Assembly (NCBI GenBank): GCA_004556395.1
Contig: SFHK01000010.1
Coordinates: forward strand, 1-64,000
DNA length: 64,000 nt
DNA from: Clostridiales bacterium
Lineage (GTDB): Bacteria; Bacillota; Clostridia; Christensenellales; Aristaeellaceae
Direction of reading: 5' to 3'
The position numbers were made by a program, and so were the translations under genes. Below, piece after piece: positions 32,856-37,537 of the stretch (positions are counted from its first letter, which is position 1; the number at the start of each line of letters is the position of its first letter). Under the pieces are notes generated by a model. That model was not told the DNA's origin and made no database searches. It saw nothing but the letters and a program-made list of their open reading frames with translations.

Positions 32856-34154
32856 ATGGCAAAGCTTCATATCGATTTTGACCGCGCGCTCGGCCGCGTG
32901 CGTCCCATGCACGGCGTGGGTCAGCCGCCGCTCACTGGCATTGATAACCGCATGTTTCATTATCTGAAGGAGGCCGGCGTTCCCTATTCCCGTCCTCACG
33001 ACGCGGGCGGCGATTTTGGCGGCGGCGTGTACTGCGATATATCCTGCGTCTTCCCCGATTTCTCGCGCGATCCCGCCGATCCGGACGCGTATTGCTTTGA
33101 ATTCACCGACAACCTGCTGGCGGGACTCGTGGAAAACGGAGTAGAGCCGTTCTACCGCCTTGGCGAAGCAATCGAGAACCACCAGCGGCTGCGGCGCTAT
33201 ACCACCAATCCGCCCGCCGACTACGACAAGTGGGCGCGCGTGTGCGAGGGTGTCATTCGCCATGTAAACGAGGGCTGGGCGAACGGGCACCATTTCGGCA
33301 TCCGCTATTTCGAAATCTGGAACGAGCCGGACAACGACATTCCAAACCGCGACAACCAGATGTGGTCGGGCTCGATGGAGGACTATTTCCGTCTGTACGA
33401 CGTAGCCTCCAAATATCTGAAGGCGCGCTTCCCGAAATTGCAGATCGGCGGCTACGCGGCCTGCGGCTTCTACGCCGAGGCGAACCGGCTGGCGGGTCGA
33501 AGCTTCTCGGATCGCGAGCAGTACTTTGATGATTTCTTCCACGCCTTCCTGAAGTTCGCAGGTGAGAACAAATGCCCGCTGGACTTCTTCTCGTGGCACA
33601 GCTACGCGTCCCCCGCGGACACGGAGAACATGGCGCGCTACTGCCGCCATCACCTCGACGCGGCAGGGTTCGCGAACGTGCCGATGATTATGAACGAATG
33701 GAACCCCTCGATTCACTGCCGCGGATCCGCCTGCGCCGCCGCCGAAGCCGCGGAGATGTTCCTGCGCATGCACCGCGCCGGCGTGGAAGCCTGCATGTAT
33801 TATGACGCGCGCTACGGCGTGTCCGTCTACGGCGGCCTGTTCAACCCGCTCACGGCGAAGCCGTTTTCTACCTATTATTCCTTCGTTGCGTTCAACGCAC
33901 TGTACCGCGCCGGGACGCAGGTTGCCTGCGAAGCCGACGCGCCGCTGATCGCCATGGCCGCGGCGGGCGAAAACGGACAGCGGCTCGCGCTGATCGTGAA
34001 CACGACGAACACGGAAACCGCGCTGACGCTCGAGGGCTGCCCCGCGCCGGTGCGCCTTTCCGTGGTGGAGGACGGCGAAGCCTGTCTCAAGTGGCGGCCG
34101 CTTTCCGACGCCGGCACCATGCCCCCGCACGCCGTCTGGCTGATGGAGTTCTGA
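32856..34154 (+). CDS. GH39-like beta-xylosidase/glycosidase
   Basis: This 432-residue clan GH-A enzyme has the acid/base motif FEIWNEPDN near residue 155 and a nucleophile-type motif MIMNEWNP near residue 280. PMHGVGQPP at the N-terminus and FFSWHSYASP are also family-like. There is no signal peptide, so it acts in the cytoplasm. The start at 32856 follows GAAGGGGG. GH39 members cleave beta-xylosides or iduronides; specificity is not clear. Confidence 0.8.
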   Translation: MAKLHIDFDRALGRVRPMHGVGQPPLTGIDNRMFHYLKEAGVPYSRPHDAGGDFGGGVYCDISCVFPDFSRDPADPDAYCFEFTDNLLAGLVENGVEPFYRLGEAIENHQRLRRYTTNPPADYDKWARVCEGVIRHVNEGWANGHHFGIRYFEIWNEPDNDIPNRDNQMWSGSMEDYFRLYDVASKYLKARFPKLQIGGYAACGFYAEANRLAGRSFSDREQYFDDFFHAFLKFAGENKCPLDFFSWHSYASPADTENMARYCRHHLDAAGFANVPMIMNEWNPSIHCRGSACAAAEAAEMFLRMHRAGVEACMYYDARYGVSVYGGLFNPLTAKPFSTYYSFVAFNALYRAGTQVACEADAPLIAMAAAGENGQRLALIVNTTNTETALTLEGCPAPVRLSVVEDGEACLKWRPLSDAGTMPPHAVWLMEF

Positions 34155-34181
34155 GAAAAGCCTGTTCATTTCACGGAAATA

Positions 34182-34224
34182 CGCGGGGCGGCGGCGTTCC
34201 AACGGGAACAACCGCCGCCCCGCG
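34182..34224 (+). terminator. GC-rich 13-bp hairpin after the GH39-like gene
   Basis: CGCGGGGCGGCGG at 34182-34194 pairs with CCGCCGCCCCGCG at 34212-34224. No T-run follows. It may be a factor-dependent stop or mRNA end-protecting structure. Confidence 0.5.
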
Positions 34225-34247
34225 TCCGTCCAACCTGCGGGAGGTGG

Positions 34248-34625
34248 ATGGAAATGACTGGAAAGGAAACCTGCGCCCGGCTGCGCGAAATTCGAAATGA
34301 AATCGCCGTTCAGAACGGCTTTGAACCCATACCCGACACCTGCACGCATTCGGGAGATTGCCCCGGCACGTGCCCGAAATGCGACGCGGAGCTGAAGGCT
34401 CTATCCGAAAAGCTCGAAGCGCGCGCCAGGCTCAAAAAGCGCGTGGCGCTGGCGGGAATTTCCGTGGGACTGTGCGCCGCGCTGGCGGGCTGCTCCGTGG
34501 AAACGCCCGTCGCCGAATGGCTGGAACGGCTGACGCGGCCGTCCGAGGTTCGGCAGGCAAACGATCCCGGCGAGGCGACCGTGCTGATGGGCGAGGTCGA
34601 CATCAGCGGAGCCTATCAGCCGTGA
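34248..34625 (+). CDS. Small protein with C.GTCP.C motif and hydrophobic segment
   Basis: This 125-residue protein has a helical head, then CTHSGDCPGTCPKCDAEL (four Cys, C-x5-C-x3-C-x2-C), a charged helix, a hydrophobic stretch at about 66-83 ending LAGCS, and an acidic tail. The C-GTCP-C module is found in diverse uncharacterised proteins and could bind metal. The LAGC resembles a lipobox but is internal, so it may be a membrane anchor. The gene is preceded by GGGAGGTGG and overlaps the radical SAM gene by four bases, so the products are probably linked. Confidence 0.7.
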   Translation: MEMTGKETCARLREIRNEIAVQNGFEPIPDTCTHSGDCPGTCPKCDAELKALSEKLEARARLKKRVALAGISVGLCAALAGCSVETPVAEWLERLTRPSEVRQANDPGEATVLMGEVDISGAYQP

Positions 34626-35233
34626 GCGCGCTTCTGCCCGTATACGCGCTGTGCCGCCATCGCATCGATCATGACGGCGGCGGCGTGGTGACGCTGGTCG
34701 GTGTAAGCGGCTGTCCGCTGAACTGCCGCTGGTGTCTCAACCCCGAAGCCCGCGACGGCGCGGCCGCCGCAAGGCTCTATACCCCGGAAGCGCTGTATGA
34801 CGCGCTGGCCGTCGACGATCTGTACTTTCAGGCGACGAACGGCGGCGTGACCTTTGGCGGCGGCGAGCCGCTGATGCACGCCGACTTCCTCCGCGCCTTC
34901 ATCTGGCTGGTCAACGGCCGCTGGAAGGTGCGCGCCGAAACGTCCCTGCACGTGCCGCCGGAAAATGCGGTGCTGCCGCTGGACGAATATATCGTAGACA
35001 TAAAGGATATGAATCCCGCCATCTATCACGCCTACACCGGCGGGAACGCCGCGCTCGCGCGTGAAAACCTCGCCGCCGTCCTGCGCGCCGGAAGCACCGA
35101 CCGCGTTCTCGCGCGCGTGCCGCTCATTCCGGATTATAACACGGAAGGCGACGTGCAGAAGAGCGTCGAAGCCCTACGCGCTATGGGCGTGACGCGCGTC
35201 GACCCGTTCCGCTATCTTCGAAAGGAAGCCTGA
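34622..35233 (+). CDS. Radical SAM enzyme, glycyl-radical-activase-like, short form
   Basis: A GTG start at 34622 overlaps the previous stop (GTGA). The 203-residue protein has the radical SAM cluster motif CPLNCRWC (C-x3-C-x2-C) near residue 35 and GGGEPLMHADF, as in pyruvate formate-lyase activating enzymes. YIVDIKDMNPAIY and ARVPLIPDYN are also activase-like. It is shorter than usual activases and has no extra ferredoxin domain. No glycyl radical enzyme lies nearby; the next gene is a small secreted repeat protein, so a peptide or protein substrate is possible. Confidence 0.85.
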   Translation: MSALLPVYALCRHRIDHDGGGVVTLVGVSGCPLNCRWCLNPEARDGAAAARLYTPEALYDALAVDDLYFQATNGGVTFGGGEPLMHADFLRAFIWLVNGRWKVRAETSLHVPPENAVLPLDEYIVDIKDMNPAIYHAYTGGNAALARENLAAVLRAGSTDRVLARVPLIPDYNTEGDVQKSVEALRAMGVTRVDPFRYLRKEA

Positions 35234-35240
35234 TTTTCCC

Positions 35241-35630
35241 ATGAAACTGCTTCTTATCGCGCTGTCCATGCTGTTCGTGCTCCCCGCGTCTGTCTCCTCC
35301 GTCGGCTTTATCGGCGGCGCGGACGGGCCGATGGAGGTTTTCGTCACCACCCCTGACACAGCCAATACAAACATTGCCATCATCGGCGGCGCGGACGGCC
35401 CGACGGAAGTTTTCGTCACCACCCCCGACACGGTCGATACAAACATTGCCATCATCGGTGGCGCGGATGGCCCGACGGACGTTTTCGCCGTCAGTCCGGA
35501 CGAGGCCGACGCGCTGACCGTCATCGGCGGCGCGGATGGGCCGACCGCCGTGTTCATAAGCGGCTCACCCCGTCTCCTGCCCGCCCTGTGCGGATTCCTT
35601 GGCATCCTCTTTGCAAACGCCGGCCGCTGA
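35241..35630 (+). CDS. Secreted small protein with four IGGADGP repeats
   Basis: This 129-residue protein has a signal peptide (MKLLLIALSMLFVLPASVSS). Four tandem repeats begin at residues 24, 48, 72 and 95, each IGGADGP(T/M)xVF followed by a Thr/Asp/Pro-rich spacer. A hydrophobic C-terminus (LLPALCGFLGILFA) follows. The first two DNA repeat units are 72 bases each and nearly identical, so duplication is recent. The motif occurs in the beta subunit of sodium-pumping decarboxylases, but those are large membrane proteins. The gene lies seven bases after the radical SAM gene and is followed by a terminator. Confidence 0.8.
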   Translation: MKLLLIALSMLFVLPASVSSVGFIGGADGPMEVFVTTPDTANTNIAIIGGADGPTEVFVTTPDTVDTNIAIIGGADGPTDVFAVSPDEADALTVIGGADGPTAVFISGSPRLLPALCGFLGILFANAGR

Positions 35631-35633
35631 ATC

Positions 35634-35665
35634 GCGCCGGCGTATTGCGTCGGCGCTCTTTTTTT
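35634..35665 (+). terminator. Intrinsic terminator after the repeat-protein gene
   Basis: GCGCCGGCG at 35634-35642 pairs with CGTCGGCGC at 35648-35656 (one G-T pair), loop TATTG, followed by TCTTTTTTT. Confidence 0.9.
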
Positions 35666-35673
35666 GCTATAAT
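35645..35673 (+). promoter_or_regulatory. Promoter overlapping the terminator
   Basis: TTGCGT at 35645-35650 lies in the loop and stem of the terminator. TATAAT at 35668-35673, with TGC before it (extended -10), is 17 bases on. It would drive the DNA glycosylase gene and those that follow. Confidence 0.7.
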
Positions 35674-35741
35674 AATACCGGAACACGAACGTGGGAGGCG
35701 ACCGGCTTGCGAACTCGAACGAGCGTGCCGCCGGTTTTCTG

Positions 35742-36230
35742 ATGGCGCGCATCTACGGCTTCCCGCCGGTAGCGGACGCGAACAGCCGCGTGCTGATTCT
35801 GGGCAGCATGCCCAGCGTGAAATCACTGGAGGACGGGTTTTACTACGGTCATCCGCGCAACGCCTTCTGGCGCGTGCTGGCCGACGTGTTCGCCGAGCCG
35901 CTTCCGGAGGACATTCCCGCGAAGAAGCGGCTGCTCCTGCGCCACGGTCTCGCGCTATGGGATGTGATCGTCTCGTGCGAACGGGACGGCTCGCTGGACA
36001 GCGCCATTCGCCGCGAGGAACTCAACGACTTCGCCGCCTTCTTCGCCGCGCATCCGAGCATCCACGCGGTGCTGGTGAACGGCGGTCTGGCGGCACAGAA
36101 ATTCAAACCCGCGCTGGCGGAGGGGCGGCCGATTGTGCGCCTGCCGTCCACCAGCCCGGCGTACACGCTTCCCTACGACAAAAAGCGGGCCGCATGGCGG
36201 TCTGCGCTTATGCGATTTTTGGAGGACTGA
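35742..36230 (+). CDS. Hypoxanthine/uracil DNA glycosylase (Mug-like family)
   Basis: This 162-residue protein removes deaminated bases (hypoxanthine or uracil) from DNA. VLILGSMPSVKSLEDGFYYGHPRNAFWRVL carries the family motif 1 (parts LILGSMPS and YYGHPRNAFW), and LPSTSPAYTLPY is motif 2. The start is placed at ATG 35742, which gives the usual N-terminus (ARIYGFPPVAD). It has no ribosome site; an in-frame GTG at 35691 is the alternative. Two bases separate it from the next gene. Confidence 0.85.
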   Translation: MARIYGFPPVADANSRVLILGSMPSVKSLEDGFYYGHPRNAFWRVLADVFAEPLPEDIPAKKRLLLRHGLALWDVIVSCERDGSLDSAIRREELNDFAAFFAAHPSIHAVLVNGGLAAQKFKPALAEGRPIVRLPSTSPAYTLPYDKKRAAWRSALMRFLED

Positions 36231-36232
36231 CC

Positions 36233-37537
36233 ATGTCTGTGATTGATCTTCTTATAAAAAAGCGCTTCGGCGGCGAGCTGACGCACGAGGAAATCCGCGA
36301 ATTCGTGCGCGGCGTGACCGACGGCTCCGTGGCCGACTATCAGGCCAGCGCAATGCTGATGGCTATCTGCATCAATGGCATGACGGCGGAGGAAACGCTG
36401 AACCTGACGATGGAAATGGCCGTCTCCGGCGACACGCTCGACCTGAGCGCCATTCGCGGCGTGAAGGCGGACAAGCATTCCACCGGCGGCGTGGGCGACA
36501 CGACCAGTCTCGTTCTGGTGCCTCTGGTCGCGGCCTGCGGCGTGAAGGTGGCCAAAATGTCCGGCCGCGGGCTGGGCTTCACCGGCGGCACGCTCGACAA
36601 GCTGGAATCGGTACCGGGGCTGTCCGTGAGCATGGACACAGAGCGCTTCATTGAAACCGTAAACAAGCACGGTCTTGCGATCATCGGCCAGACGAAATCC
36701 CTCGCTCCGGCGGACAAGGTGCTCTACGCCCTGCGCGACGTGACCGGCACGGTGGACTGCCTGCCGCTGGTGGTCTCCTCCATCCTGTCCAAAAAGATTG
36801 CCGCGGGCGCGGACGTGATCGTGCTGGACGTGAAGACCGGCAGCGGCGCGATCATGCCTACCTATGAAAAATCGCTCGAGCTGGCGCGCACGATGGTGGA
36901 CATCGGCAACCGAACCGGCCGCAAATTCGCCGCGCTGGTGACCGACATGAACCAGCCGCTGGGCAACTACGTCGGCAACGCGCTGGAGGTATACGAGGCC
37001 ATTGAAATCCTCTCCGGCCGCGCCGAGGGCGACCTGAAAACCGTTTCCCTCATGCTGGGCGCACACATTCTGCGTCTGGCCGGCGTCGTGTCCACGGTGG
37101 ACGAGGGCGTTCGCATGCTGGAGGAAAAAATCCGCAGCGGCGAGGGGCTCAAAAAGCTGTCCGAGCTGTTCGCCTGCGAAGGCGGCGACCCGCGCGTACC
37201 CTACGAGCCCGATCGTCTGCCGAAGGCGCCGAAGCAGATCGACCTGTTTTCCGACGCGGACGGTTACGTGGCCGGCATTCACACCGACAAAATCGGTTAC
37301 GCCGCCAAGGCGCTGGGCGCGGGACGCGAGCGCAAGGAGGACAAAATCGACCTGTCCGTGGGCATCGTGATGAAAAAACGGCTGGGCGACCGCGTAAAGA
37401 AGGGCGAGCCGCTGCTCACCATGCACGTTTCGGAGATTTCGGATGTTCCCCGCGCCGAAGCGCTGGCGCGCGAAGCGTTCCGCTTCACGGATACAAAGCC
37501 CGAAACGCCGGAACTGATTCGCGGCGTCGTCGAATGA
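36233..37537 (+). CDS. pdp: Pyrimidine-nucleoside phosphorylase
   Basis: Splits uridine and thymidine with phosphate to base and pentose 1-phosphate. The 434-residue protein has KADKHSTGGVGDTTSL (family signature and phosphate loop), KMSGRGLGFTGGTLDKLE, DVKTGSGAIM and a C-terminal domain. The start at 36233 follows GGAGG. It is likely co-transcribed with the glycosylase before and the membrane protein after (ATGA overlap). Confidence 0.95.
   Translation: MSVIDLLIKKRFGGELTHEEIREFVRGVTDGSVADYQASAMLMAICINGMTAEETLNLTMEMAVSGDTLDLSAIRGVKADKHSTGGVGDTTSLVLVPLVAACGVKVAKMSGRGLGFTGGTLDKLESVPGLSVSMDTERFIETVNKHGLAIIGQTKSLAPADKVLYALRDVTGTVDCLPLVVSSILSKKIAAGADVIVLDVKTGSGAIMPTYEKSLELARTMVDIGNRTGRKFAALVTDMNQPLGNYVGNALEVYEAIEILSGRAEGDLKTVSLMLGAHILRLAGVVSTVDEGVRMLEEKIRSGEGLKKLSELFACEGGDPRVPYEPDRLPKAPKQIDLFSDADGYVAGIHTDKIGYAAKALGAGRERKEDKIDLSVGIVMKKRLGDRVKKGEPLLTMHVSEISDVPRAEALAREAFRFTDTKPETPELIRGVVE

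Follow-up and report, generated by a model that had tools for sequence, protein, structure and literature searches.

A short radical SAM enzyme encoded between a cysteine-rich protein and a secreted-type protein built of repeats raises the question of which of its two neighbours it acts upon. The locus lies in the window analysed here, a stretch of 64,000 nucleotides from a Clostridiales bacterium (contig SFHK01000010.1). The pairing worth following is that of the enzyme (gene 2) with the cysteine protein (gene 1), not that of the enzyme with the repeat protein (gene 3). We put at about 60% the probability that genes 1 and 2 are a conserved pair, the predicted role of the enzyme being to alter the tail of a protein that has a Cys head and is itself predicted to be exported, with gene 3 probably a separate carrier of a sequence tag.

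The three genes and all their described parts are found on the plus strand between positions 34248 and 35630 (Table 1). The first-pass annotation had outlined a three-gene cluster, and the sequence bears this out: genes 1 and 2 overlap by 4 bp (GTGA), and seven bases separate the stop codon of gene 2 from the ATG of gene 3. Gene 1 more likely starts at the ATG at 34254 than at the one at 34248, judging from the better Shine-Dalgarno spacing (GGAGG about nine bases off) and from its relatives, which begin M-x-G-K. The strong terminator that had been proposed is present as a 10-bp stem with 8 G-C pairs followed by TCTTTTTTT; it has the longest stem of three terminator-like sites, a number that is not above chance (shuffle mean 2.0), and the minimum-energy fold of 35610-35670 favours a different hairpin (z -1.73). 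The finer observations held as well. The C-x5-C-x3-C-x2-C motif of gene 1 is there, accompanied by a further conserved cysteine at residue 9, and gene 3 encodes a signal-peptide-like start and four IGGADGP units spaced 24, 24 and 23 residues. At the DNA level identity over 72 nt reaches 90% between repeat copies 1 and 2 versus 67% for copy 3, so that the suspected recent duplication is real. Rfam gave no match at gathering scores over 33900-36300, and the sole match of PADLOC on four proteins was to viperin (E 0.0046). A perfect 14-bp inverted repeat with a 17-nt loop and no T tract (34181-34225) lies 22 bases ahead of the first ATG of gene 1.

Table 1. Features of the three-gene locus (positions in the window), with two proteins from other loci (positions in the locus named)
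Feature	Position	Strand	Start or length	Basis
Gene 1, Cys-head protein, proposed substrate precursor	first ATG 34248, likelier start 34254, end 34625	+	125 aa	
Five-cysteine head domain, residues 5-60, proposed leader / enzyme-recognition domain	34260-34427	+		Cys pattern conservation
KKR, hydrophobic stretch and lipobox LAGC (Cys82), predicted lipoprotein signal	34434-34493	+		sequence
LMGEV, single tail-motif copy of gene 1, proposed modification site	34584-34598	+		motif statistics
Gene 2, minimal radical SAM enzyme, PFL-activase-like	34622-35233	+	GTG start, 203 aa	
CPLNCRWC, [4Fe-4S] cluster motif CxxxCxxC	34712-34735	+		three Cys invariant in 38 aligned relatives
GGGE, SAM-binding motif	34856-34867	+		invariant in 38 aligned relatives
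DIK, counterpart of PFL-activase DLK	34997-35005	+		aligned to 3c8f; D126 and K128 invariant in 38 relatives
Gene 3, secreted-type repeat protein, hydrophobic C-terminal segment	35241-35630	+	ATG start, 129 aa	
IGGADGP unit 1	35310-35330	+		
IGGADGP unit 2	35382-35402	+		
IGGADGP unit 3	35454-35474	+		
IGGADGP unit 4	35523-35543	+		
Intrinsic terminator	35634-35666 (stem 35634-35656, T tract)	+		terminator search
Unassigned proteins with C-terminal five-Cys head, overlapping enzyme gene	L262 2112-3155; L263 2118-3119		333-347 aa	

The product of gene 2 matches the Pfam Radical_SAM domain (E 1.6e-9) and, judged by sequence comparison, is a member of a minimal family related to pyruvate formate-lyase (PFL) activase. 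Its best solved relative is the PFL-activating enzyme 3c8f (E 4.2e-7 alone, 3.3e-23 with the family profile). With this structure and 3cb8 it shares the CxxxCxxC motif of the radical SAM cluster and the activase core, the GGE region, a D-h-K segment and the core length aligning over residues 15-202, whereas the enzyme as a whole is about 40 residues shorter. It misses the cut-offs of the NCBIfam activase models TIGR02494 (114 of 174.35 bits) and TIGR02493 (68.9 of 231.75 bits), and the best 25 of 34 NCBIfam families all score below their curated cut-offs. Pfam finds no SPASM domain in the enzyme and no RRE (PqqD-like) domain in the enzymes and partners scanned, the RRE being common in RiPP systems but not obligatory. 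A homology search yielded 2253 proteins at E <= 1e-10 among 4160 candidates; no relative of the enzyme was found in viral contigs. A tree built from alternate loci of L001-L080 and seven of L082-L093 and L258-L274, 58 rows once identical ones were dropped, places 47 family rows on one side of a 100/99 branch, and nine activase-like rows together with two enzymes fused to a head domain on the other; it is rooted at the midpoint only, and a long-branch warning applies where the outgroup and the fused enzymes join. Row L071 in this tree is the ordinary activase of that locus, and the label 'nocys' stands for no partner within 1.5 kb. One database protein, P0007, looks chimeric, with an activase N-terminus joined to a gene 2-type enzyme, and is probably an assembly join at shared words.

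What the enzyme may work with is indicated by its neighbourhood in other genomes. A single scan of genome contigs yielded 80 loci of 3.2 to 20.6 kb, by their titles mostly from Bacteroidota and otherwise from Clostridia. In 72 of the 79 scorable loci (L072, where no enzyme ORF was found, is unscored) the enzyme gene has a gene 1 relative no more than 1.5 kb away, and in 69 of these no more than 335 bases away; the relative stands upstream of the enzyme in Clostridia and mostly downstream in Bacteroidales. The seven loci lacking a near partner are a mixed lot: L023 and L048 end close behind the enzyme, L069 holds a headless tail close to the contig end, L065 a 49-aa vestige with just the first part of the head, and in L074 the partner is 4.9 kb away; the genome of L057 (G014) has two unlinked head copies, and L046 has none. 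The same association emerges from a less biased sample, 148 genomes drawn from the class of G001, a draw that includes G001 itself, which is one of the loci. The enzyme profile hits eight of these genomes at E <= 1.2e-46 and eight more at E 4.4e-34 to 9.4e-31, where the matches are activase-like proteins of 255 to 262 aa; the head profile hits eight at E <= 7.2e-14 and four at E 1.4e-4 to 5.3e-4, with matches starting at profile position 40 or later. Enzyme and head occur in the identical eight genomes and, at those cut-offs, in none of the other 140, the cut-offs having been chosen after the gaps were visible and two of the eight genomes (G609 and G643) being close relatives.

The head was found in all 25 genomes selected for holding the enzyme, with 33 places listed. 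Some genomes carry several copies, such as G015 with five heads and two enzyme genes and G016 with three heads, and others place the head on a contig other than that of the enzyme (two heads in G014, one in G320). Hence the partner need not be linked to the enzyme gene, and one enzyme may serve several partners. A putative dedicated modifying enzyme thus recurs beside a putative precursor gene, in 72 of 79 loci and in the same 8 of 148 genomes. The RiPP-like maturation layout suggested by the first-pass annotation is supported in outline with its roles changed, the recurrent partner of the enzyme being the Cys-motif protein. A glycyl radical enzyme as steady neighbour, which had been named as the observation that would overturn that layout, is not seen: a regular-expression search of the loci, which reach at most 10 kb to each side, found an ORF of more than 500 aa with a C-terminal glycyl-radical motif in 2 of 80. 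In this respect the family differs from PflA, since it has no regular glycyl radical enzyme neighbour and adjoins a Cys-head protein instead.

The partner proteins share an anatomy. In an alignment of gene 1 with 15 partners of 33 to 47% identity, C9, C32, C38, C42 and C45 are invariant, and the pattern C-x20-25-C-x5-C-x3-C-x2-C recurs in 120 of 120 listed homologues and in 71 of 72 locus partners, the one exception being cut by a contig end. This five-Cys head is followed by basic residues, a hydrophobic stretch, often a lipobox-like cysteine, and then the tail. The lipobox-like cysteine is present in 118 of the 120 listed homologues, a set for which the profile included tails and the length window favoured short partners, and in 59 of 85 locus partners; in many Bacteroidales partners the hydrophobic stretch closes, by eye, with an AxA-like site instead. 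A conserved N-terminal, leader-like part thus precedes a variable, core-like part, in which length and domains differ and one motif is common. Clostridia partners have short acidic tails (mean 26% Asp+Glu), and six of the ten partners scanned contain TonB_C or CarbopepD_reg domains. The head itself matches no Pfam or NCBIfam model at cut-off, its zinc-ribbon matches being sub-threshold, and by these profile comparisons no curated family appears to cover either enzyme or partner at cut-off. The head has at least 6806 relatives at E <= 1e-5 among 8000 candidates scored; among the 120 listed, those with a source name are called 'hypothetical protein'. In a variant partner in L085 (617-1438) the five-Cys head is preceded by an additional CxxC-like stretch; no lipobox was found in it, and its tail matches the broad motif five times.

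The common motif of the tails is a hydrophobic-x-Gly-Asp/Glu-hydrophobic repeat with the consensus L-[MDE]-G-[DE]-V-P. In a first set of 38 short tails (of 85; length 15 to 169, non-redundant) 33 tails together hold 59 matches to the broad expression [LVIMF]-x-G-[DEIVKLMF]-[VIMAP], where 1000 shuffles gave 8.2 on average and 17 at most. This expression was written after reading that set, so the fairer tests are the count in a separate homologue set, a free enumeration and a stricter expression. In the 66 non-redundant tails kept from the 120 homologues, themselves drawn from at least 6806 relatives, the broad motif occurs 137 times in 63 tails (shuffle mean 15.5, maximum 29 in 1000), and the strict motif, which admits only Asp or Glu after the glycine, 125 times in 61 tails (mean 8.4, maximum 18). 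An enumeration of three-position patterns that presupposed no motif ranks Gly-containing patterns first, h.G.h being found in 63 of 66 tails versus 18.6. The longer tails, mostly from Bacteroidales, show the strict motif 38 times in 23 of 28 non-redundant sequences (kept from 38), versus a mean of 6.7 and a maximum of 15. As a control, 60 enzyme sequences contain the strict motif three times. Cysteines beyond the lipobox number 11 in the 66 tails, and their scarcity argues against thioether chemistry.

PFL-activase is established to abstract hydrogen from the C-alpha of a glycine within a short peptide motif. Since the enzyme keeps the PFL-activase core and the tails repeat a glycine-centred motif, glycine suggests itself as the target, and we infer a leader-directed, RiPP-like system that would modify the tails of exported proteins, glycine being the probable site. 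Its five-Cys head, which likely binds metal, would dock the precursor on the enzyme in the cytosol, where the enzyme, like PFL-activase, would abstract a hydrogen from the glycine C-alpha in hydrophobic-x-Gly-[Asp/Glu]-[Val/Ile/Met]. The precursor would then be exported by Sec and cut by signal peptidase, II at the lipobox or, in many Bacteroidales, I. Cleavage would discard the head as a leader, and the modified, often lipid-anchored tail would stay outside; in fused forms the head resides on the enzyme and the lipoprotein would be recognised in trans. Candidate products are a rearranged, cross-linked or otherwise altered glycine. Several observations count against this scheme: G609 and G643, described below, show that a cleaved leader is not universal, no more than 59 of 85 locus partners have a lipobox-like cysteine (L085 has none), seven of 79 loci have no partner nearby, and the tail of gene 1 carries a single copy of the motif.

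In some genomes the head lies elsewhere, as an exception to its N-terminal position. In G704 and G600 a related radical SAM protein (315 and 306 aa) carries it as a C-terminal fusion, and the ORF that follows encodes a small lipoprotein of 81 or 97 aa that has no head and whose tail matches the broad motif only (VVGMM and LMGIP). The fused enzymes fall outside the main branch of the family, beside PFL-activase-like rows, in the part of the tree that carries the long-branch warning; no further fusions were found among the nine genomes of the order of G704 (eight besides G704 itself). In G609 and G643 the head is C-terminal on a protein of 347 or 333 aa that has no lipobox and whose gene overlaps the enzyme gene by four bases, so that a cleaved leader is not universal. 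The head is read as a recognition element between enzyme and would-be substrate chiefly because it can sit on either of the two, evidence that comes from two genomes with a fusion and two more with a C-terminal head and no lipobox.

These same four genomes can also be cited for another role, since the head, rather than being a leader, could donate electrons or metal. It would then be an accessory of the enzyme, the tail would be unmodified, and the lipoprotein would serve merely to place the head near the membrane. The cysteine spacing does resemble that of zinc ribbons, if by sub-threshold matches only. However, the head precedes the export signal in most members and would be lost on cleavage, conservation of the tail motif is strong, and a small lipoprotein still follows in the fused cases, all of which make an accessory head unlikely.

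Taken as a leader-directed system acting on tails, the pair invites comparison with what is known of radical SAM chemistry on peptides. Radical SAM RiPP systems include SCIFF/ranthipeptides, sactipeptides and epipeptides. Genes 1 and 2 resemble them in that a putative dedicated enzyme stands beside a putative precursor whose N-terminal part is conserved, while its C-terminal part varies and is often repetitive. They differ in having neither SPASM nor RRE by Pfam, in a leader that would be a five-Cys domain ahead of a lipobox or signal-peptidase-I-like site, and in a core that would be the tail of a lipoprotein or a TonB_C / CarbopepD_reg protein. TIGR04133 and TIGR04134, radical SAM / putative lipoprotein pairs of Bacteroides, are alike in setting a radical SAM gene beside a lipoprotein gene. 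The enzymes of that system are SPASM proteins, and neither model was listed for any of 10 scanned proteins (for two enzymes, among the best 25 of 31 and of 43 families). No description of the pair or of the named sequences was found in the full-text literature covered, a scope outside which lie most subscription papers and all preprints. The pair would seem, we infer, to work like a leader-directed radical SAM system whose types of leader, enzyme and substrate differ from the known ones.

If the tails are modified, the product of a radical SAM enzyme would be an ordinary exported lipoprotein or TonB-like protein, not a small peptide; the system would rely on a minimal activase-type enzyme with one cluster, and its recognition domain, found now on the enzyme and now on the substrate, would be open to testing. 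More tentatively, and at somewhat less than even odds, the pair may represent a large new class of modification in gut Bacteroidota and Clostridia, in which a minimal PFL-activase-like enzyme would abstract hydrogen from glycines in the tails of lipoproteins and TonB-type proteins that are exported, with a detachable five-cysteine head, on substrate or enzyme, as its guide. Were this true, glycyl-radical chemistry would take place on secreted tails rather than in an enzyme active site.

What, then, of gene 3? The IGGADGP repeats might themselves be the substrate, as the core of a repeat-core RiPP with the Cys protein as an accessory. Genes 2 and 3 are 7 bp apart and have a terminator in common, and the repeat number is 2, 3 or 4 among close relatives of gene 3. 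A hint of linkage in a second lineage is given by P0011, a radical SAM protein of 59% identity, and the repeat protein P0141, which come from the same source with a longest contig of 1769 bases each, a match that is one among thousands of pairs and can be chance. The recurrence of such a repeat gene beside the radical SAM gene, anticipated from the sequence of this single locus, was not borne out: none of the 80 enzyme loci contains one among six-frame ORFs of at least 30 aa, and one unrelated 207-aa ORF carries KGADGP. Outside OadB, the beta subunit of the Na+-pump decarboxylase, the tag occurs in 2 of 8 class-wide genomes with the enzyme and in 22 of 140 without it, and no association was detected (Fisher p = 0.62). 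The tag also sits in unrelated proteins, and the gene 3 protein has neither the Cys head nor the tail motif, which together render a repeat-core RiPP highly unlikely. Among 308 genomes of the family of G320 there is no close relative of gene 3, the best match (E 2.2e-8) being a tag-bearing binding protein.

That the enzyme is an ordinary activase of an unlinked glycyl radical enzyme, as its best NCBIfam and PDB relatives would have it, is very improbable, given that all listed NCBIfam scores lie below curated cut-offs, a glycyl-radical motif occurs in a large ORF at so few loci, the family has its own branch in the tree and the enzyme co-occurs with the head domain.

With genes 1 and 2 as the pair, gene 3 is probably one more carrier of the tag, here multiplied, and a bystander. 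IGGADGPT had rightly been recognised as a motif of decarboxylase beta subunits, and its use elsewhere turns out to be wider than one stretch of DNA could reveal. The exact codon pattern is found in 109 of the 148 class-wide genomes versus 0 of 148 for the reversed control, so IGGADGPT is not a product of chance. Among 133 exact matches that were read, 108 are OadB and 25 are not. The 25 fall by eye into about 16 kinds, including rhodanese-like lipoproteins, small two-helix proteins and a solute-binding protein, and 22 of them have a lipobox or a transmembrane/signal-like stretch (L149, L172 and L252 have neither). The unit comprises 16-17 residues, from about -4 to +12 around the motif (S-I-G-I-I-G-G-A-D-G-P-T-A-I-F-V-S), and then ends; OadB continues L-A-P.

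The gene 3 repeat matches PF03977 over 27 residues, and the Asp of the tag falls at about position 203 of an OadB profile. The likeness stops short of the whole membrane core, the best repeat covering 27 of 349 profile positions: the remainder of the pump has no match in gene 3, whose product is of secreted type, 129 aa long, and holds four copies. Sodium binding by OadB requires Asp203, which lies at the hairpin H1 tip (PMC7274780). The tag may perhaps be an exported mimic of this sodium-binding hairpin tip, possibly a decoy. The puzzle it poses is why unrelated proteins, most of them exported or in the membrane, should preserve a 16-17-residue piece of an ion pump nearly unchanged. Its carriers comprise gene 3 (35310-35543), L127, L129, L142, L155, L193, L203, L205, L242, L244, L246, L254 and others. 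By eye, L095, L097 and L111 encode FecB-like binding proteins in which the tag comes after the signal peptide, twice over in the case of L095, and L101 encodes an NMT1-like binding protein that ends in the tag. In the database protein P0145 the signal peptide of gene 3 is joined to OadB exactly at the tag, probably through an assembly join at shared words.
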